A stretch of DNA of 64,000 bases from Acidobacteriota bacterium (lineage in GTDB: Bacteria > Acidobacteriota > Terriglobia > Acidiferrales > UBA7541). The stretch covers positions 25,489 to 89,488 of the forward strand of contig PMTV01000043.1 of NCBI GenBank assembly GCA_003167215.1, given 5' to 3'. Shown here one piece after another: positions 1,852-11,613 of the stretch; the first letter of the stretch is position 1; every line of letters begins with the position of its first letter. The notes beneath the pieces were generated by a model. It worked only from the letters and a program-made list of their open reading frames with translations. It did no database searches and was not told the origin of the DNA. The translations under genes and the position numbers were made by a program.

Positions 1852-3216
1852 TCACTGATTCCAAACTGCTTTGATGTTGGTGAACTCGCGAATTCCATAA
1901 ACTCCCAGTTCACGGCCGATGCCCGACCGTTTGGCGCCGCCGAAGGGAAGGCGCGGATCAGACACGACCATGCGGTTGATGAACACCATGCCCGCCTCGA
2001 TGCCATTGATGAACTGATCCTGCTCGCTTTTTTCGCTGGTCCACGCGCTGGCGCCCAATCCGAAAGGCGTGGCGTTAGCGATGCGAATCGCGTCGTTGAT
2101 ATCTTTGGCGCGAAACAGGGAAGCGACCGGGCCGAAAAGCTCGTCGCAAGCTGCGGGAGAGCCGTCGGGGATATTGCTCAGCACCGTGGGAGCGTAGAAA
2201 TTTCCGGGGCGGTTCAAAGGCTTTCCGCCGGTGAGTAATTTCGCTCCCGCTTTGATCGTTTTTTGGACATCTGCGTCGAGCGTGGTGACTCCGTCAGCCG
2301 TCGCTAGCGGGCCTAACTCCGTGGTTTCATCGAACGGATCACCGATTTTCAGGGATTCCATTTTCTCGACGAAGAGTTTTTCGAAGTCGTCGGCGATGCG
2401 CTGATCGACTATGAACCGCTTGGCGGCGATGCAGGATTGGCCATTGTTCTGCACGCGAGCTTTCACCGCGGCAGCGGCCGTTTCCTTAAGGTTTGCGCTG
2501 GGCATCACGATGAAGGGATCGCTGCCTCCAAGCTCCAGCACGATTTTTTTGATTTTCTTTGCCGCAGCTACGGCGACCTGAATTCCTGCGCCTTCACTCC
2601 CGGTCAGCGTGGCAGCAGCGATTCGAGTGTCGGCAATAATGCCGCCGACTTTGTCGGAACCGATAAGCAGAGTTTGAAACGCTCCTTGCGGGAAACCGGC
2701 GCGAAGGAAAATGTCTTCAATCAGAAGAGCGCACTGCGGGACATTGGAGGCATGTTTGAGGAGTCCCATATTGCCGGCCATCAGCGCCGGCGCGGCGAAG
2801 CGAAACACCTGCCAGAAGGGAAAATTCCAAGGCATCACGGCGAGCACCGGGCCCAGGGGCTGATATCGAATGAAACTGCGTGAGGCGCTGGTTTCGACTA
2901 CTTCATCGGCCAGAAAACGCTCGGCGTGCTCGGCATAATAGCGGCAGCCGACGGCGCACTTCGCGGCTTCGTCCACCGCGGCGCGAATGGGTTTGCCCAT
3001 CTCGAGTGTCATCACGCGGCCGAATGCTTCTTTTTCCTTCTCGAGAATTTCAGCCGCTCGCAACATCATCTCCGCTCGCTTCAAGTAGGGAACGCTTTTG
3101 TAAGAGCGAAAGGTTTCCGTTGCGAGATGAAGCTTTTGTTCAATTTGCGCGTCTGACAAGGCGTCGAAAGACTTTATAAGCTCGCCGGTGGCGGGATTGA
3201 TCGTCGCGATAGCCAT
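1852..3216 (-). CDS. NAD(P)-dependent aldehyde dehydrogenase, succinate-semialdehyde dehydrogenase type
   Basis: A 454-residue aldehyde dehydrogenase that oxidises an aldehyde to the acid in the cytoplasm. The catalytic Cys is C262 in NNGQSC and the general-base Glu is E228 in LELGGSDPF; the PWNFPFWQ segment lies in the cofactor-binding half. The N-terminal ATINPATGE and the overall length match the short GabD/Sad (YneI) group, which oxidises succinate semialdehyde, so that substrate is the best guess but not proven. I chose ATG at 3216 because GAGGAAAGA lies just upstream; an in-frame start at 3267 would add 17 residues unlike the family. No GABA transaminase or other pathway partner is adjacent; the neighbour downstream is the unrelated membrane protein. 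Confidence 0.9.
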   Translation of the reverse strand: MAIATINPATGELIKSFDALSDAQIEQKLHLATETFRSYKSVPYLKRAEMMLRAAEILEKEKEAFGRVMTLEMGKPIRAAVDEAAKCAVGCRYYAEHAERFLADEVVETSASRSFIRYQPLGPVLAVMPWNFPFWQVFRFAAPALMAGNMGLLKHASNVPQCALLIEDIFLRAGFPQGAFQTLLIGSDKVGGIIADTRIAAATLTGSEGAGIQVAVAAAKKIKKIVLELGGSDPFIVMPSANLKETAAAAVKARVQNNGQSCIAAKRFIVDQRIADDFEKLFVEKMESLKIGDPFDETTELGPLATADGVTTLDADVQKTIKAGAKLLTGGKPLNRPGNFYAPTVLSNIPDGSPAACDELFGPVASLFRAKDINDAIRIANATPFGLGASAWTSEKSEQDQFINGIEAGMVFINRMVVSDPRLPFGGAKRSGIGRELGVYGIREFTNIKAVWNQ

Positions 3217-3300
3217 TCTTTCCTCTTGTGAGAAGGGGGAAACAGGCTTTCCCCAGATTAATTTCAAGATCTCAATGCGTCCAATCAGACTACCACATGA

Positions 3301-3862: not shown

Positions 3863-4984
3863 ATGAATCACCGGTTCACCATAGGTGTCGAAGAAGAGTT
3901 TCAAATTGTTGACCCGGCGACGGGAGAGCTGCGTTCGCACGTAAGCGAGCTTGTTGCCGCCACTTCGCCGGGCCTGGGCGAGCAGGTTAAGCCCGAGATG
4001 CATCAGTCCATCGTTGAAATCGGCACGAAGATCTGCAACAACGTGGACGAATTGGCGGCGGACATGCGGCGCACACGCGGCGAATTGGTGCGAGCTGCTG
4101 AAAAAGTGGGCCTGCAAGTTGCTGCCGCCGGCACGCATCCTTTTTCAAGCTGGATCGATCAGGTGATCTCGCCGGGAGAGCGCTACCAAAACATCGTTGA
4201 AGAGCTGCAGCAACTGGCGCGCTCGCTGCTAATTTTCGGAATGCACGTGCACGTGGCGGTGCCCGATCGCACGAGCATGATCGACCTGATGAATATGGCG
4301 CGCTATTTTCTGCCGCATCTCTTGGCGCTTTCCACCAGTTCGCCTTTTTGGATGGGGCGCGATACGGGCTTGAAGTCATTTCGCACGACGGTATTCCGGC
4401 GTTTCCCGCGCACGGGAATTCCGGACCACTTCAGCTCCTGGAGCGAGTACGAGGATTACGTAAATCTGCTGGTGCATCTGCACTGCATCGACAACGCAAA
4501 AAAGATCTGGTGGGACGTTCGGCCGCATCCCACGTTCGGGACACTTGAATTTCGAGTATTTGACGTGGCCACGCGATTGGACGAAGGCATCGCTATCGCG
4601 GCTCTGACGCAGGCTCTCGTGGTGAAGCTGCATCGGCTTTACACGCGCAATATCAGCTATCGCATGTATCCTCGCGCGCTGATCGAAGAAAATAAATGGC
4701 GGGCGGCGCGCTGGGGAGTGGAAGGCAAACTCATTGATTTCGGCAAGCAAGCGGAAGTGCCCATGCAGGAGTTGGGGGAAGAGCTTCTTGAATTCACATA
4801 CGATGTCGCGGGCGATCTGGGAAGCCGCGCAGCGCTTGAACCGATTCACAGGATTCTGCGAGAGGGCACCAGCGCCGAACGGCAGTTGCGCGTATTCAAG
4901 GAAACGGGCGATTTGAAGCAAGTAGTGAAGCACATTGTGGAAGAAACGAGCGAGGGTATAACCCAGCAAGCATCCTCGGCATAG
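3863..4984 (+). CDS. Carboxylate-amine ligase, GCS2/YbdK family
   Basis: A 373-residue protein of the glutamate-cysteine ligase type 2 family. Residues 8-17 carry the diagnostic GVEEEFQIVD metal/ATP-binding start; FGMHVHVAV, the middle WWDVRPHPTFGTLEFRVFD and the C-terminal helical part are also typical. The family joins the gamma- or alpha-carboxyl of an acidic amino acid to an amine using ATP; YbdK itself has weak gamma-glutamyl-cysteine ligase activity, so the true substrate here is open. ATG 3863 follows GGAGAAG. It is the first gene of a plus-strand run with two further ligases (5107, 6093) and an M29-like peptidase (7544), which argues for a dedicated small-molecule pathway rather than ordinary glutathione synthesis. 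Confidence 0.92.
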   Translation: MNHRFTIGVEEEFQIVDPATGELRSHVSELVAATSPGLGEQVKPEMHQSIVEIGTKICNNVDELAADMRRTRGELVRAAEKVGLQVAAAGTHPFSSWIDQVISPGERYQNIVEELQQLARSLLIFGMHVHVAVPDRTSMIDLMNMARYFLPHLLALSTSSPFWMGRDTGLKSFRTTVFRRFPRTGIPDHFSSWSEYEDYVNLLVHLHCIDNAKKIWWDVRPHPTFGTLEFRVFDVATRLDEGIAIAALTQALVVKLHRLYTRNISYRMYPRALIEENKWRAARWGVEGKLIDFGKQAEVPMQELGEELLEFTYDVAGDLGSRAALEPIHRILREGTSAERQLRVFKETGDLKQVVKHIVEETSEGITQQASSA

Positions 4985-5106
4985 GCCGTTTTGGGTGCGC
5001 CAAGATGGGCTGGAAGCGAATTGTTATGCTGAACGAGCGAAACTCGCCAAAACGAGATGCCTCACCAGACGTGAAGAGTTCCGTTCCCAATAAAGGAAGT
5101 GCTGCG

Positions 5107-6096
5107 ATGAAAATTGGACTTCTTTGCGGCCGCGAATACAGCTTCCCGCCGGCCTTTATCGAGAAAGTAAATGAGCTGGGGGAGCGCGACAACGTCACGG
5201 CGGAATTCGTTCACCTGGGCGGGGTGCGCATGGGCGAACCCGCGCAGTATCGCGTGATCGTGGACCGTATTTCGCACGAAGTGGACTTTTATCGGGGATA
5301 TTTGAAGCACGCCGTGCTGCAGGGCACTTACGTCATCAACAATCCTTTCTGGTGGACAGCGGACGACAAATTTTTCAACTACGCCGTGGCCTCAAAGCTT
5401 GGTATCGCCATTCCCAAGACGATTCTGTTGCCGCAGAAGTCCTATCCGTCCGATGTGGACATCACGTCGGAATCGTTGCGAAATCTGGAATACCCGATTA
5501 ACTGGGACGCTTTGCTCGATGCAGTTGGCCGGCCGGCGATTTTGAAGCCTTTTTCGGGCGGGGGATGGAAGCACGTTTACAAAGTGAATAATCGAGAAGA
5601 GCTGCTGGCCGCGTACGACGCCACCGGGCCCACCTGCATGACGCTTCAGGAATTTATCGATTTTGACAAGTATGTCCGCTGCTTCACGTTCGGCAAGATG
5701 GATATCATGCCAGTTGCTTACGATCCGAAGGAGCGCCGCTATCTGGTGGACCACAAGTATCTATCCGCGGAGCTGGGTTCGCGGATTGTGAGCGATGCGC
5801 AAACAATCAACCAAGCGCTGGGATACGAAATGAACACGATTGAATTTGCGGTCAAGCAAGGCGTGCCTTACGCCATCGATTTTCTGAATCCTGCGCCGGA
5901 TTTCGAGCGCGATCGCATTACTGAGTTTTACTTCGAAACTGTCGTGGACCGAATGGCTCGGCTGGTAATCGACCGCGCGCTTAACGGCTTGCCGGCAAAT
6001 TCCTGGCCTCGGTGGGAAGAAATGCTGGGCATCGGCGCTGCTAGCGGTTTTACGGGCGCACCGGAGAAGGGCCGCGCGGGAGCGAAAACTGCGTGA
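5107..6096 (+). CDS. ATP-grasp ligase
   Basis: A 329-residue cytoplasmic ATP-grasp protein. Visible parts are the ATP-binding Lys with glycine-rich loop (ILKPFSGGGWKHVY, K147), the adenine-contact segment TLQEFIDFDKYVR and a late IEFAVKQG...AIDFLNPAPD segment carrying the Mg-binding acidic/Asn residues. The family activates a carboxylate as acyl phosphate and couples it to an amine or thiol; the N-terminal third (LLCGREYSFPPAFIE onward) presumably forms the substrate domain. ATG 5107 is preferred over an upstream in-frame start at 5005 because AAAGGAAG precedes it and the core begins there. It follows the GCS2 gene by 122 bp, and its stop overlaps the GTG start of the next ligase, so those two are translationally coupled. 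Substrate unknown. Confidence 0.9.
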   Translation: MKIGLLCGREYSFPPAFIEKVNELGERDNVTAEFVHLGGVRMGEPAQYRVIVDRISHEVDFYRGYLKHAVLQGTYVINNPFWWTADDKFFNYAVASKLGIAIPKTILLPQKSYPSDVDITSESLRNLEYPINWDALLDAVGRPAILKPFSGGGWKHVYKVNNREELLAAYDATGPTCMTLQEFIDFDKYVRCFTFGKMDIMPVAYDPKERRYLVDHKYLSAELGSRIVSDAQTINQALGYEMNTIEFAVKQGVPYAIDFLNPAPDFERDRITEFYFETVVDRMARLVIDRALNGLPANSWPRWEEMLGIGAASGFTGAPEKGRAGAKTA

Positions 6097-7472
6097 GCGG
6101 TTCCGTCCGGGCTTCGCAAACACCGTCTTCTCCCGCTGAGCATTGGCACGGGCTCTTGCGTCCGGACGTGGAGCTTGCTCCCGCGTTTTGGGCTGAGTTG
6201 AATGCGCGCATGCGCGCGGAGAAACTCACATTTGGAGACCGCGTACACTGTCCATTCCTGCGGCCTTTCTTCCTCAGCACGCAAGATGAAAATCGTGTGC
6301 GCGAAGTCGCGGAACTGATCGCGGAGCTTGGCGAACGCGTTGTAGCGCGGGCGCTAGCCGATCCGGCATTGCTGGCGCAAGTAGGGCTGTCGCGCGAAGA
6401 AGAGCGCCTCGCGCGCATTTCGCCGCGGTACAAGACTGCCAGCACCGCTTCGCGTCTCGATGCTTTTCTGCTTCCCAACTCCTTGCAGTTCGCCGAATAC
6501 AATGCTGAGTCGCCTGCGGGGCCCGGTTACGCCGAGACTTTGGCGGGAGTATTTCGCACGTTGCCGATCATGGAACGTTTCGCGGAGCACTACACGGTTC
6601 GGCAGTTTTCGTTGATCGAGCAGTTGCTCGCGGCGCTGCTCGCGAGCTATCGCGAATGGGGCGGAACGGCTTCGCCTCCGGTAATCGCGATCGTTGACTG
6701 GCGCGAGGTGCCTACCTGGAGCGAGTTTGAAATTTTGCAGGCGCGTTTTGAAAAAGCGGGCGTGCCGACGGTTGTCTGTACTCCGTCCGATCTCGTATTT
6801 GACAGCACGAAGCTCATGGCGAATGGCCGCCGCATCGACCTGGTCTATCGCCGAGTGCTTATCAACGACATTCTTGCCCGTCCTGCTGAATGCGAAGCGC
6901 TGGTAAAGGCGTACGAAGCGGGGGCTGCCTGCGTGGCGAACGCGCTGACGTGCAAAATCGCCCACAAGAAAGCGTTCTTCGCAGTTCTTACCGATGAGCG
7001 AAACTCATCACTATTCAGCGCGAACGAGCGCGAAGTGATCCGCCGCCACATCCCGTGGACGCGTTTGCTAGAGGACGCCAAGACCACGCGCGACGGCGAA
7101 TCTTTCGGCATACTCGATTACGTTCGCAAGCGCAGAAATGATTTCGTGCTGAAGCCGAACGACGAGTACGGCGGCACGGGTGTGACGCTGGGCTGGGAAA
7201 TGGACGACCAAGCGTGGGACGACGCCCTGCAGCGGGCGCTTTCCGACCGCGATAGCAAATGGGTGGTGCAGCAGCGCATCGCGGTGCGGCGCGAAGTTTT
7301 TCCGGTGCGTACGCCGAACGGAATCGAGATGCGCGACATGCTCGTGGATTTCGCGCCATATCTGTTCCGCGGCCGCATGGCTGGATGCTTGACGCGGTTG
7401 AGTTCAACCGGTTTGGCGAACGTCACCTCCGGCGGCGGCCAGGTTCCTTCCTTCGTCGTCGATCCGCGCTGA
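6093..7472 (+). CDS. Circularly permuted ATP-grasp type protein
   Basis: A 459-residue protein starting with GTG at 6093, overlapping the previous TGA by 3 bases. Residues about 133-144 read FAEYNAESPAGP, as in circularly permuted ATP-grasp proteins where the NxES acidic segment comes before the Lys loop. The Lys loop is near the C-terminus (FVLKPNDEYGGTGVTLGW, K354), followed by VVQQRIAVRREVFPV. This order is the hallmark of the permuted family. Such proteins are usually found beside alpha-E or transglutaminase-like genes, or act as amide ligases; neither partner is present here. Tight coupling to the ATP-grasp at 5107 suggests consecutive ligations on one product. Substrate unknown. Confidence 0.88.
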   Translation: MSGSVRASQTPSSPAEHWHGLLRPDVELAPAFWAELNARMRAEKLTFGDRVHCPFLRPFFLSTQDENRVREVAELIAELGERVVARALADPALLAQVGLSREEERLARISPRYKTASTASRLDAFLLPNSLQFAEYNAESPAGPGYAETLAGVFRTLPIMERFAEHYTVRQFSLIEQLLAALLASYREWGGTASPPVIAIVDWREVPTWSEFEILQARFEKAGVPTVVCTPSDLVFDSTKLMANGRRIDLVYRRVLINDILARPAECEALVKAYEAGAACVANALTCKIAHKKAFFAVLTDERNSSLFSANEREVIRRHIPWTRLLEDAKTTRDGESFGILDYVRKRRNDFVLKPNDEYGGTGVTLGWEMDDQAWDDALQRALSDRDSKWVVQQRIAVRREVFPVRTPNGIEMRDMLVDFAPYLFRGRMAGCLTRLSSTGLANVTSGGGQVPSFVVDPR

Positions 7473-7543
7473 TGATAACCAGAGTTTGCTTTAGCGAAGG
7501 TTTATCCGTGGTAAAAACTCTGCGTCAAAATTACAATAACTGA

Positions 7544-8569
7544 ATGACTTTTGGAACTGTTAAGCCGGAGCTAATGCCCGGCGCCCGAAACGCGGTGGAA
7601 ACGTGCCTGGGGATACAGCCGAATGAGCGCGTGACGCTCATTGCGGATCGCCCGAGCGCGATTGTTGCAGCGAGTCTAGCGAAGGCGATTGTGGATCGTG
7701 GAGCGATCTGCGATCCGTTTCTGCTCGAGGATCTTGCTGCGCGGCCGCTGCTGCGCGCTCCGCAACCGGTGCTGGATTCGCTCGGCCGCGCTGATGCCGG
7801 AATTCTCTGCATGCAGCCGATGCTGGGAGAGCTGGCCGCACGCAAAGACATTGTGGGAGTGGTGGAGAGGCGCCACATCCGCTACGCGCACATGGTTGGG
7901 GTGACGCCGGAAATCATGCAGCAGGGAATGCGCGCGGATTACACCATGGTGGACAAATTGAGCGAGCGCCTGCTACAGCGCATGCATTCCGCGCGTTCGC
8001 TTACGGTGCGCACGGATGCGGGCACTTCTCTGGTTGCGAGTTTTGACGCCGCGCTCGACTGGGTGAAGACCAGCGGACTGATCAATCGGCGTTACTGGTC
8101 GAACCTGCCGGCCGGCGAGGTTTTCACTACGCCAGCGAAGGTGGACGGCACGTTTGTGTGCGACGGCACCGCTGGCGATCACTTCTGTGGAAAATACGGC
8201 GACCTGCAGAAAACGCCGCTCTCGCTTGAGATTAGCGGCGGCCGATTAGTGGCAGCGAAATGCGCGCGCAAGGATCTGGAAGAAGAATTCTGGAAATATT
8301 GCCACACGGATGAAAACAGCGACCGCGTTGGCGAGCTGGCTTTCGGGACGAACCTCAGCCTGTCAAACATGATTGGCGTTCTGCTACAGGACGAAAAGCT
8401 TCCTGGTGTTCATCTCGCTTTTGGCGATCCCTACGGCAGCCAAACGCACGCCGCGTGGACTTCGCGAACGCATGTGGACGTGCTAGCGCGGGCCTGCGAT
8501 GTGTGGATTGACGAAGAGCAAGTGATTGCCAAGGGCCGCTACCTACTTGACCGCTTGGGGTTGGCGTAG
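7544..8569 (+). CDS. M29 (AmpS/PepS)-like aminopeptidase
   Basis: A 341-residue protein with the layout of M29 metallo-aminopeptidases and their relatives (including NicX-type ring-cleaving dioxygenases). The N-terminal half has an alpha/beta substrate domain; the C-terminal half has GELAFGTNLSLS, GVHLAFGDPYG and HAAWTSRTHVDVLA, which carry the Glu/His/Asp metal ligands of the family. M29 enzymes use two divalent metals to remove N-terminal residues. The 71-bp gap from the permuted ATP-grasp and shared strand suggest the same transcript. In this context it could trim or recycle the ligase product, or be a metal enzyme of different chemistry. No clear Shine-Dalgarno precedes ATG 7544, so the start is only fair. 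Confidence 0.85.
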   Translation: MTFGTVKPELMPGARNAVETCLGIQPNERVTLIADRPSAIVAASLAKAIVDRGAICDPFLLEDLAARPLLRAPQPVLDSLGRADAGILCMQPMLGELAARKDIVGVVERRHIRYAHMVGVTPEIMQQGMRADYTMVDKLSERLLQRMHSARSLTVRTDAGTSLVASFDAALDWVKTSGLINRRYWSNLPAGEVFTTPAKVDGTFVCDGTAGDHFCGKYGDLQKTPLSLEISGGRLVAAKCARKDLEEEFWKYCHTDENSDRVGELAFGTNLSLSNMIGVLLQDEKLPGVHLAFGDPYGSQTHAAWTSRTHVDVLARACDVWIDEEQVIAKGRYLLDRLGLA

Positions 8570-8574
8570 CCGTT

Positions 8575-9306
8575 TCAAAATAGCCTGGTGATGTATTCCC
8601 ACATTTGATGTTTCCAGTAGGGCCAGTCGTGGCCGCCTTGCGGCCCCCAATCGTCGAGATGATGAGGAATTCCTTTGCTCGACAAGATATTCGAGAGACG
8701 GTAAGAGGGACCGCTGTGTTCCCACGGCCCGGAGCCTGTCGCGATGTGGATGTCGCACTGCGAGAGCTGCGCCATTACGTTTCCGTCTGAAAGATTTGAG
8801 AGGTAGTCCACCGGATTGTTGAAGTAGGTGTTGTCGTCGTACATCCCGTTCATGAAATTCTTAATGTCGTAAACGCCGGAAAGCGCGAAGCAGCGGCGCA
8901 CAACATCGGGATGCTTAAACAGAGTGTTTGCGGCGTGATAAGCGCCGAAAGATGCTCCCATGGTGGAAATCGCGATGTCCTGTGACTGACAGTTGTCGCG
9001 AATGAAAGGAACCACTTCGTTCCGCACATAGGCGTCGAATTGCGATTGAACCCAACTGCGATGAAAAGGGTGCGCACTCTTGTTATAGAAACCGGCGGAA
9101 TTCACGGAATTGATGCTGAAAAACTTCACGCGGCCAGCGTCGATCAAGGGCGACAAACTTCCGATGAGGCCCTGGCCCTCAAGCTCCCACTCATCGCCGG
9201 CGCTGGTGGGGAATCCCAGGAGCGGAGGCCCCCAGTGGCCGTAAACAACGACTCCCATATCGAGGCCGAGGCGATGCGAATACCACCGATGATATTCCCG
9301 TTTCAT
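8575..9306 (-). CDS. Esterase, enterochelin-esterase/esterase-D-like alpha/beta hydrolase
   Basis: A 243-residue alpha/beta hydrolase on the strand opposite its neighbours, ending 5 bp past the M29 stop. The nucleophile elbow is GASFG with S119 (preceded by IAISTM), and a late GPQGGHDWPYW supplies the probable catalytic His near residue 226. No signal peptide is visible, so it should be cytoplasmic. The N-terminal YSHRLGLDMGVVVYGHWG is typical of the putative esterase family that includes enterochelin esterase and S-formylglutathione hydrolase relatives. It diverges from the second esterase at 9522 with a 215-bp shared upstream region. It may act on the product of the ligase cluster; this is inference from position only. 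Confidence 0.88.
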   Translation of the reverse strand: MKREYHRWYSHRLGLDMGVVVYGHWGPPLLGFPTSAGDEWELEGQGLIGSLSPLIDAGRVKFFSINSVNSAGFYNKSAHPFHRSWVQSQFDAYVRNEVVPFIRDNCQSQDIAISTMGASFGAYHAANTLFKHPDVVRRCFALSGVYDIKNFMNGMYDDNTYFNNPVDYLSNLSDGNVMAQLSQCDIHIATGSGPWEHSGPSYRLSNILSSKGIPHHLDDWGPQGGHDWPYWKHQMWEYITRLF

Positions 9307-9521
9307 GTTGCTCCTGGTCTTGAGCTGCGGCTCGAAATTCGAGCCTAAGGTTGAGCGCGGTATTATACGGCGTTTACCGGCACAGAACCCGGAAACTCTA
9401 TGCCTCTGAATTTTTGCTCTGGTATTGTAATAGAATGCGCGATTCGACGAGGAGGCTTCTTGCTTAGTGATTCAGCCGGAGCGGATCTGGCGCGACGCAA
9501 TTTAAAGTGGAGGAATCCCGA

Positions 9522-10346
9522 TTGGTGCTTTCCCGAGAAATGGCGGCGGGATTGAGCGCGTCCGGGGCCGGCCAGTTGCGGAAACATGAAGGGTATCGCT
9601 CGCGCTTTCTTCCTCGCAAGCGCGACCTGATCGTCTATCTGCCCGCCATCTACGAGCAAAACCCGCAATTGCGCCTTCCGGTGCTTTATCTGCAGGACGG
9701 CCAAAACCTGTTTGATGGCGCGACGTCATTCATCCCGGGCATGGACTGGCACGTGAGGGAGACTGCTGACCGGCTGATTGCAGAAGGTGCGATTCGACCG
9801 CTCATCATCGTCGGCATATACAACACGGGCAAAGGGCGACTTGGCGAGTACACGCCTACGCGCGATAAAAAAATGGGCGGAGGAAGGGCCGGCCGCTATG
9901 GCCGGATGTTAATCGAAGAAATCATGCCGTTCATCAATTCTGAATATCGCACGCTCTCGGGACCTGCGAATACGGGCGTGGGTGGTTCATCGCTGGGAGG
10001 GCTCCTCGCGATTTACCTCGGTCTCCGTTTCCCAAAAGTGTTTGGCAAGCTCGCGATTCTTTCCCCTTCGGTATGGTGGAACCAAGGCTCGATATTGAAA
10101 CTTGCAGCACGGGCGAAGTTGCGCGATCGCCCCAGGATTTGGTTAGACGCCGGCACCAGGGAAGGCGGGCGCAGCGTAGAGAACGTGGAGAAGCTACGCG
10201 ACGTTCTTGCTGAGAAAGGTTGGCAGGAAGGCCGCGACCTACATTTCGAAGTGATTCCGGGAGCCGAGCACAACGAAGATGCTTGGGGACGACGCGTCGG
10301 GCCATTCTTGCAATTCCTATTTCCCTCCGGCGAGACCGCAGTATAA
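9522..10346 (+). CDS. Esterase, alpha/beta hydrolase (IroE/Fes-like)
   Basis: A protein of about 274 residues with the esterase motif [12 protein letters not shown] (nucleophile S157 in GSSLG) and late [10 protein letters not shown] providing the catalytic His near residue 250. The [15 protein letters not shown] segment is characteristic of the enterochelin-esterase/YbbA-like group. The start is uncertain: TGGAGGA at 9508-9514 would serve TTG 9522 or GTG 9525, whereas GTG 9507 would lie on the Shine-Dalgarno itself and ATG 9540 has none. Its 3' end overlaps an upstream extension of the following ATP-grasp frame. Two related esterases placed between ligase genes suggest hydrolysis of an ester or activated amide in the same pathway, but the substrate is unknown. 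Confidence 0.87.
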
Positions 10347-10407
10347 TCCGCATTACCGTCATAGCCGCAGAACCAGCTTAGTTCAGCAGCATCCGAGGCC
10401 ATCGTCT

Positions 10408-11613
10408 TTGCCCCCAGAGAGACCGCTAACCATTCTGTGCATCAGCTCTTACGAGAAAGGGCAGGAATTTCTGCGCGAGGCAAAGAAAGAAAACTGCCGC
10501 GTACTGCTCCTCACGCTGGAAAAACTCCGTAACGCGGACTGGCCGAGCGAGGCAATCGACGAGATGTTTTATACGCCGGAAGACCTTCCTACTCCGGACA
10601 TAATCCGCGCCGTCAGTTTCATGGCGCGTACGCAGCCGATCGACCGCATCGTTGCGCTGGACGAATTCGATATGGAAAACGTCGCGGCGCTGCGCGAACA
10701 TCTGCGCATCCCGGGCATGGGGCTCACCACCATGCGCTACTTTCGAGACAAGCTGGCGATGCGCGGCCGCGCCCAGGAATCCGGCATCCCGGTTCCGGAA
10801 TTCGTGCACGTTCTCAATTACGAAAATCTGAAAAGCTTCATGGCTCGCGTGAAGCCGCCGTGGCTGCTGAAACCGCGGTCGCAGGCATCCGGGATCGGCA
10901 TGAAAAAGATCCAGGAGCCCGCGGAGCTGTGGCCGTGGCTCGATCAACTGGGCGACCAACAGTCTTTTTTTCTGCTGGAGCAGTTCGTTTCCGGCGACGT
11001 TTATCACGTGGACAGCATCGTCTCCGAGCGCAAAGTGGTGTTTGCCGAAGCCCATGGCTACGGGAAGCCGCCGCTGGAGGTTTCTCACCAAGGCGGTATT
11101 TTTACTTCACAAACTTTGTCGCGGGCATCCGCGGAATCCAAGGCGCTACTGAAGATTAATCGCGAATTGATCGAGGCGCTCGGATTCGTGCGCGGCGTGA
11201 CCCATGCTGAATTCCTACGCGCGCACGAAGACGGGAAAATTTACTTTATCGAGATCGCGGCGCGGGTGGGCGGCGCTTATATTTCGGACGTGATCGAAGC
11301 CGCCACTGGAATCAATCTCTGGCGGGAATGGGCGCGCATCGAAGTGGCCGGAGGAAAAACGCCCTACGTCCTGCCCGATACGCGGCGCGACTACGCCGGC
11401 GTGGTGATTTCATTGGCGCGACAGGATAATCCCGATACTTCCGCCTATAACGACCCGGAGATCGTGCTACGCATTCCAAAGCATCATCACGCGGGATTCG
11501 TACTGCGTTCGCCCAAGCAGCAGCGAATAACCGAATTGCTTGACTCCTATGCGAGGCGGTTCCACCAGGATTTTTACGCCACCCAGCCGGTTCCTGACAA
11601 ACCCAGCGCATGA
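10408..11613 (+). CDS. ATP-grasp ligase (carbamoyl-phosphate-synthase-like fold)
   Basis: About 401 residues. ATP-grasp features are the Lys loop [17 protein letters not shown] (K155), the [17 protein letters not shown] hinge and the Mg/ATP segment [12 protein letters not shown] (E282). This order and the IAARVGG ending are typical of the BL00235/L-amino-acid-ligase and PurT-like branch, which makes dipeptides or other amides. The frame is open from 10279, overlapping the esterase gene, but its first 43 codons look like shadow sequence; TTG 10408 just precedes the first conserved strand ([12 protein letters not shown]). I therefore chose it, with low certainty, since no strong Shine-Dalgarno is seen. 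It is the third ATP-grasp in 6.5 kb and closes the cluster. Confidence 0.87.

Follow-up and report, generated by a model that had tools for sequence, protein, structure and literature searches.

The window analyzed here, a stretch of 64,000 nucleotides from an Acidobacteriota bacterium (contig PMTV01000043.1 of assembly GCA_003167215.1), carries an island of seven intact open reading frames at positions 3863-11613, at or close to the coordinates first given. The island encodes four ligases (GCS2, ATPg1, CPATPg and ATPg2), an M29-fold metallohydrolase (M29) and two PF00756 hydrolases (EstA and EstB). Across other genomes these genes behave as a unit, their catalytic residues are conserved, and the set is distinct from the glutathione pathway. 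To the reading that all seven form one module, a non-ribosomal, template-free ligase pathway to a peptide-like metabolite, we give an even chance; the reaction order, the substrates, the role of each hydrolase and the free small-molecule nature of the product are what we infer within it. A preliminary description of this DNA had listed four ligases, an M29-like hydrolase and two esterases in this segment and proposed that they make a small amide or peptide-like product. The list was borne out, with all reading frames intact, and the proposal is supported in part: a make-up of four ligases plus hydrolases points to such a product, and the gamma-glutamyl chain, extended by successive ligases and cut or recycled by the hydrolases, that the description offered as a candidate is a conjecture.

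Co-occurrence was examined with phyletic profiles of 297 acidobacterial genomes, in which CPATPg was counted above 370 bits. ATPg1 was present in 88 genomes and EstA in 87, with both found in 84 (Fisher 7e-65, to be read as a guide). All 52 carriers of ATPg2 and all 42 carriers of CPATPg also had ATPg1, and in a sample of 76 genomes a high-scoring GCS2 occurred in 24 of 36 genomes with ATPg1 versus 1 of 40 without it. Some loci contain a ligase-like family of ca. 395 aa, here called X, which has no Pfam or NCBIfam match and shows distant similarity to CPATPg (hhalign E 3.5e-5, probability 72%; loci L080, L084, L086, L088-L090 and L095-L097, for example L097:13425-14606). CPATPg and X tend toward mutual exclusion (p 9e-11), and 72 of the 78 genomes with a strong ATPg1 carry at least one of the two; X thus largely replaces CPATPg in genomes with ATPg1. 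Within one family (f11), 15 genomes had all three of ATPg2, X and M29 and the other 15 had none of them (p 6e-9 for ATPg2 versus X), even though the distance to ATPg2 ranged from 27 kb to 947 kb where it was not on a separate contig. The score cut-offs were set after the score gaps were visible and many of the genomes are incomplete metagenome-assembled genomes (MAGs). The all-or-none pattern of this family and the patchiness of the island among close relatives, where it occurs in 14 of 61, are less open to objections based on kinship, cut-offs or MAG quality.

When species genomes were scanned, a relative of ATPg1 turned up at 80 loci. The order GCS2-ATPg1-CPATPg, with the genes adjacent within 500 bp, was found in 51 of these, and M29 was included in 36. 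Rearranged versions occur in Acidobacteriaceae (EstA-ATPg1-GCS2-M29-X), Blastocatellia (ATPg1-CPATPg-GCS2) and Chloroflexi (EstA-ATPg1-CPATPg-GCS2-GCS2, or the EstA-ATPg1 pair alone). Gene distances were strongly correlated (r 0.88-0.96, 29 loci), as expected under co-inheritance. EstB and ATPg2 were both adjacent in only seven other loci (L018, L041, L058, L062, L071, L072 and L075), the last five of which (L058, L062, L071, L072 and L075) have them in swapped order. The genes are unequally essential: EstA and ATPg1 are near-invariant, CPATPg often gives way to X, M29, ATPg2 and GCS2 depend on the lineage, and EstB is found in few loci. On a contig labelled Betaproteobacteria (L045) we also observed an acidobacteria-like cluster with an ATPg1 80% identical to that of the window; this is probably a mislabelled MAG.

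Chance adjacency or plain vertical synteny could in principle give such neighborhoods, and the GlgC-like and enolase-like genes that flank the island are indeed also kept among related gp2 genomes. Rearranged gene orders, co-occurrence of separated genes, all-or-none loss within one family and the replacement of CPATPg by X argue against this explanation, which we regard as very improbable; chance adjacency as such is refuted by the co-occurrence data. The same four observations show that the grouping is not due to chance and that the genes are passed on as one functional set, also where they lie far apart. A lack of co-occurrence would have spoken against the earlier claim that the genes act together, and neither the neighborhoods nor the genome profiles showed it.

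The island is made up of at least two transcription units rather than one operon, because EstA is read from the opposite strand, converging on M29 and diverging from EstB. GCS2, ATPg1, CPATPg and M29 all lie on the plus strand with short spacing. Rfam and tRNA scans of the 64-kb window gave no matches, and a promoter scan, which is uninformative for Acidobacteriota, gave no consensus sites. The seven proteins had no match among the PADLOC defence models, and an anti-phage defence system was rejected on that basis.

The first gene (3863-4984, plus strand) encodes a GCS2/YbdK-family carboxylate-amine ligase of 373 aa, with matches to PF04107 (217 bits) and NCBIfam PRK13515 (525 bits, cut-off 371) and to the YbdK structure 1r8g (E 4e-65). 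The GhExE catalytic signature of GCS2-type ligases (PMC2588565) is present as GVEEE at residues 8-12, with G8, E10, E11 and E12 invariant in 15 homologues. The protein is thus, like the YbdK/GCS2 ligases described by PRK13515 and TIGR02050, a full-length match over curated cut-offs that keeps the catalytic signature, and it is predicted to activate the gamma-carboxylate of glutamate. It differs from these ligases in sitting within a multi-ligase set, and its substrate is a prediction. The Caldilineaceae version of the cluster (L077:3725-5586) has two GCS2 genes in tandem, which suggests two gamma-glutamyl-type steps.

An activity of this type also bears on the possibility that the island makes a low-molecular-weight thiol, glutathione or an analogue, as gamma-glutamyl-cysteine ligase activity has been reported for YbdK of E. 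coli (Lehmann et al. 2004, as referenced in PMC2588565). Searches for glutathione synthetase (TIGR01380) and for the bacillithiol enzyme BshC covered 14 genomes, that of the window (G000) and 13 others; E. coli was among the control genomes that matched. TIGR01380 had no match over the cut-off in any of the 14, and BshC was found in all 14 (over the cut-off in 13), with or without the island. On the evidence of these 14 genomes, glutathione or another core thiol pathway was therefore rejected as the function of the island, in agreement with the earlier view that the surplus of ligases does not serve glutathione synthesis. The patchy distribution of the island among relatives is also ill-suited to a core redox thiol, and a thiol pathway of any kind appears quite improbable.

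ATPg1 (5107-6096, plus strand, 329 aa) has no Pfam match and only a weak RimK-family score of 35 bits. Its AlphaFold model (pLDDT 84) matched D-Ala-D-Ala ligases (Ddl), LysX/ArgX and RimK in Foldseek searches with E values of 1e-12 to 1e-11, and residues K147, GGG151-153, E246, D258 and N261, which are invariant in 23 homologues, align with the ATP/Mg site of Ddl. Judged by these model-based matches, ATPg1 is a RimK/Ddl/LysX-like ATP-grasp ligase of an unnamed subfamily for which Pfam has no model. The stop and start codons of ATPg1 and CPATPg overlap as noticed before, the GTG start of CPATPg lying inside a 4-nt GTGA at 6093-6096. CPATPg (6093-7472, plus strand, 459 aa) is a circularly permuted ATP-grasp type 2 ligase, matching PF14403 (CP_ATPgrasp_2) over the cut-off and structure 3n6x with E 6e-5; K354, D419, R435 and N443 are invariant in 14 homologues. 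Pfam gave no Anbu (NTN-hydrolase) or alpha-E domain in the seven island proteins and both flanking proteins, so with no partner domains beside CPATPg, assignment to the Anbu/alpha-E/transglutaminase type of CP-ATP-grasp cluster was rejected. Graspetide clusters carry a precursor peptide gene beside the ATP-grasp gene; the intergenic gaps here are at most 200 nt.

The fourth ligase, ATPg2 (10408-11613, plus strand, 401 aa), had been described as a CPS-like ATP-grasp enzyme. The ATP-grasp assignment stood; the CPS-like part did not, as its closest PDB matches are L-amino acid ligases (4wd3, E 1e-25; BL00235 3vot, E 1e-15). ATPg2 shares with both of these the ATP-grasp fold and the ExxxRxGG motif by which L-amino acid ligases are recognized. 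The dipeptide-forming enzymes of this type (4wd3, BL00235 3vot, BacD) are distant in sequence, and ATPg2 differs from them in being tied by co-occurrence to other ligases and EstA. Among carrier genomes ATPg2 is mostly unlinked from the core genes, and the genes beside unlinked copies are lineage-specific only. In four Acidobacteriaceae loci (L110, L111, L112 and L121) it adjoins heptosyltransferase-like, RfaE/HldE-like and cellulose-synthase-like genes, named from sequence rather than by profile, and X lies beside such genes in two Acidobacteriaceae loci. A link of ATPg2 to envelope polysaccharide in this lineage is possible.

M29 (7544-8569, plus strand, 341 aa) is a predicted aminopeptidase-type enzyme that matches PF02073 over the cut-off. 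Foldseek related it to the dioxygenase NicX (7cn3, 6e-20) and to the aminopeptidases AmpT (2ayi, 1e-18) and PepS (4icq, 7e-18). Residues E192, E264, H290, Y297, H310 and D312 are invariant in 17 homologues, and we take E192, E264, H290, H310 and D312 to be the E/E/H/H/D metal-ligand set of M29 enzymes. E192, E264 and H290 align with AmpS (1zjc), whereas NicX, despite the common fold, has F and H at the positions of the two glutamates. A NicX-type dioxygenase was ruled out because of these different metal ligands, and the retention of both AmpS metal-site glutamates favors a peptidase-type site. The fold and the conserved metal set are those of M29 aminopeptidases (AmpS, AmpT, PepS), from which the island protein differs in being shorter.

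EstA (8575-9306, minus strand, 243 aa) belongs to a subfamily of PF00756 serine hydrolases, and S119 of its GxSxG motif and H226 are invariant in 16 homologues. It is the most constant partner of ATPg1. Plasmid records contained no relative of ATPg1, but those from Peptoclostridium acidaminophilum, rhizobia and Thiodictyon included EstA relatives. An EstA homologue lies directly downstream of an ATPg2-like ATP-grasp gene in Peptoclostridium, Pararhizobium and Sinorhizobium (L124:6788-8753, L126:6828-8756 and L128), and on this ground an EstA-type hydrolase with an ATP-grasp ligase looks like a widespread two-gene unit. EstB (9507-10346, plus strand, 279 aa) is a second PF00756 hydrolase (100 bits) and accessory; homologues occur near the core in only nine loci (L018, L041, L058, L060, L062, L063, L071, L072 and L075).

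These hydrolases can be read in a different way. The ligases might modify a macromolecule, either a protein or a polymer of the envelope or exopolysaccharide, with amino acids or a short peptide, and EstA, EstB and M29 would take these groups off again. PF00756 includes mycolyl-type acyltransferases, one of which, PS1 (6sx4), matches EstA; the Pup ligase PafA has a GCS2 fold (PMC2588565); and the Acidobacteriaceae copies of ATPg2, with X in two loci, stand beside the sugar-transferase-like and cellulose-synthase-like genes mentioned above. However, this polysaccharide context is confined to one lineage, the neighbors of ATPg2 varying elsewhere. The widest intergenic gap inside the island, 200 nt, leaves little space for a tag gene, and the Pfam scan detected no extra domain on any of the seven proteins. 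We consider such tagging of a macromolecule unlikely, though of appreciable probability.

A pathway to a peptide-like metabolite, the reading we prefer, would most likely begin with GCS2 forming a gamma-glutamyl bond to an amine, by precedent in its family. ATPg1, CPATPg (or X) and ATPg2 would then extend the chain by more units or cap it. EstA would probably act on an intermediate, removing or transferring a group bound as an ester or an acyl group, and M29 would probably trim or recycle the product as a dedicated aminopeptidase. Since not all carriers have all parts, the product probably varies between lineages. The combination of GCS2-type gamma-glutamylation with hydrolases would also suit a route for the use of an amine or amino acid, with gamma-glutamylation, protection, processing and hydrolytic release as in the degradation of gamma-glutamylated putrescine, and a succinate-semialdehyde-dehydrogenase-like gene lies upstream of the island (1852-3267, minus strand). 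That gene is kept beside the core only in the near-identical locus L018, which led us to reject amine degradation involving this dehydrogenase, and several distinct ligases exceed the needs of a catabolic protection step. A route of this kind is improbable.

Several observations weigh against the metabolite pathway. In EstA, two of the three catalytic residues, S119 and H226, are clearly assigned. Some genomes (G084, G112, G183 and G324) have lost or lack GCS2 and yet retain EstA together with ATPg1 and CPATPg, and the majority of CPATPg genomes have no M29; no one reaction scheme can therefore apply to all carriers. The Fisher values ignore the shared ancestry of the genomes and serve as a guide only.

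Each of the island enzymes belongs to, or near, a known family. Iyer, Abhiman, Burroughs and Aravind reportedly described in 2009 clusters in which mixed ATP-grasp and GS-fold ligases stand together with peptidases, and predicted that they produce novel peptides or tags. The operon for the osmolyte N-acetylglutaminylglutamine amide (NAGGN) likewise pairs several ligase genes with a dedicated peptidase to give a dipeptide-type solute. NAGGN synthesis relies on other families: its amidotransferase, its GNAT/ATP-grasp fusion and its M42 peptidase all lack a counterpart in the island. The open-access literature that was searched, which did not extend to the 2009 survey of amidoligase neighborhoods, contained no description of the same set of genes. 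Clusters of amidoligases with peptidases are thus already known as a general type, and the exact combination is apparently not described.

Acidobacteria are abundant in soils and their small-molecule chemistry is poorly known. Cluster finders that depend on signatures of non-ribosomal peptide synthetases, polyketide synthases or ribosomally synthesized and post-translationally modified peptides may miss sets composed of ligases and hydrolases only. Co-occurrence provides a parts list that includes distant genes (EstA, ATPg1, CPATPg or X, ATPg2, GCS2 and M29), and the pathway is therefore open to rebuilding and testing. That the EstA-ligase pair recurs in different phyla points to a biochemical step that can be reused and apparently has had no name so far. 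We tentatively propose, at somewhat less than an even chance, that the island represents a modular, template-free system of amide or peptide assembly with a core of EstA and an ATP-grasp ligase and interchangeable further ligases, giving a new class of metabolites or conjugates. With similar reserve, such a system may span ca. 30% of the sampled acidobacterial species, extend to Chloroflexi and have related pairs in Firmicutes and rhizobia.

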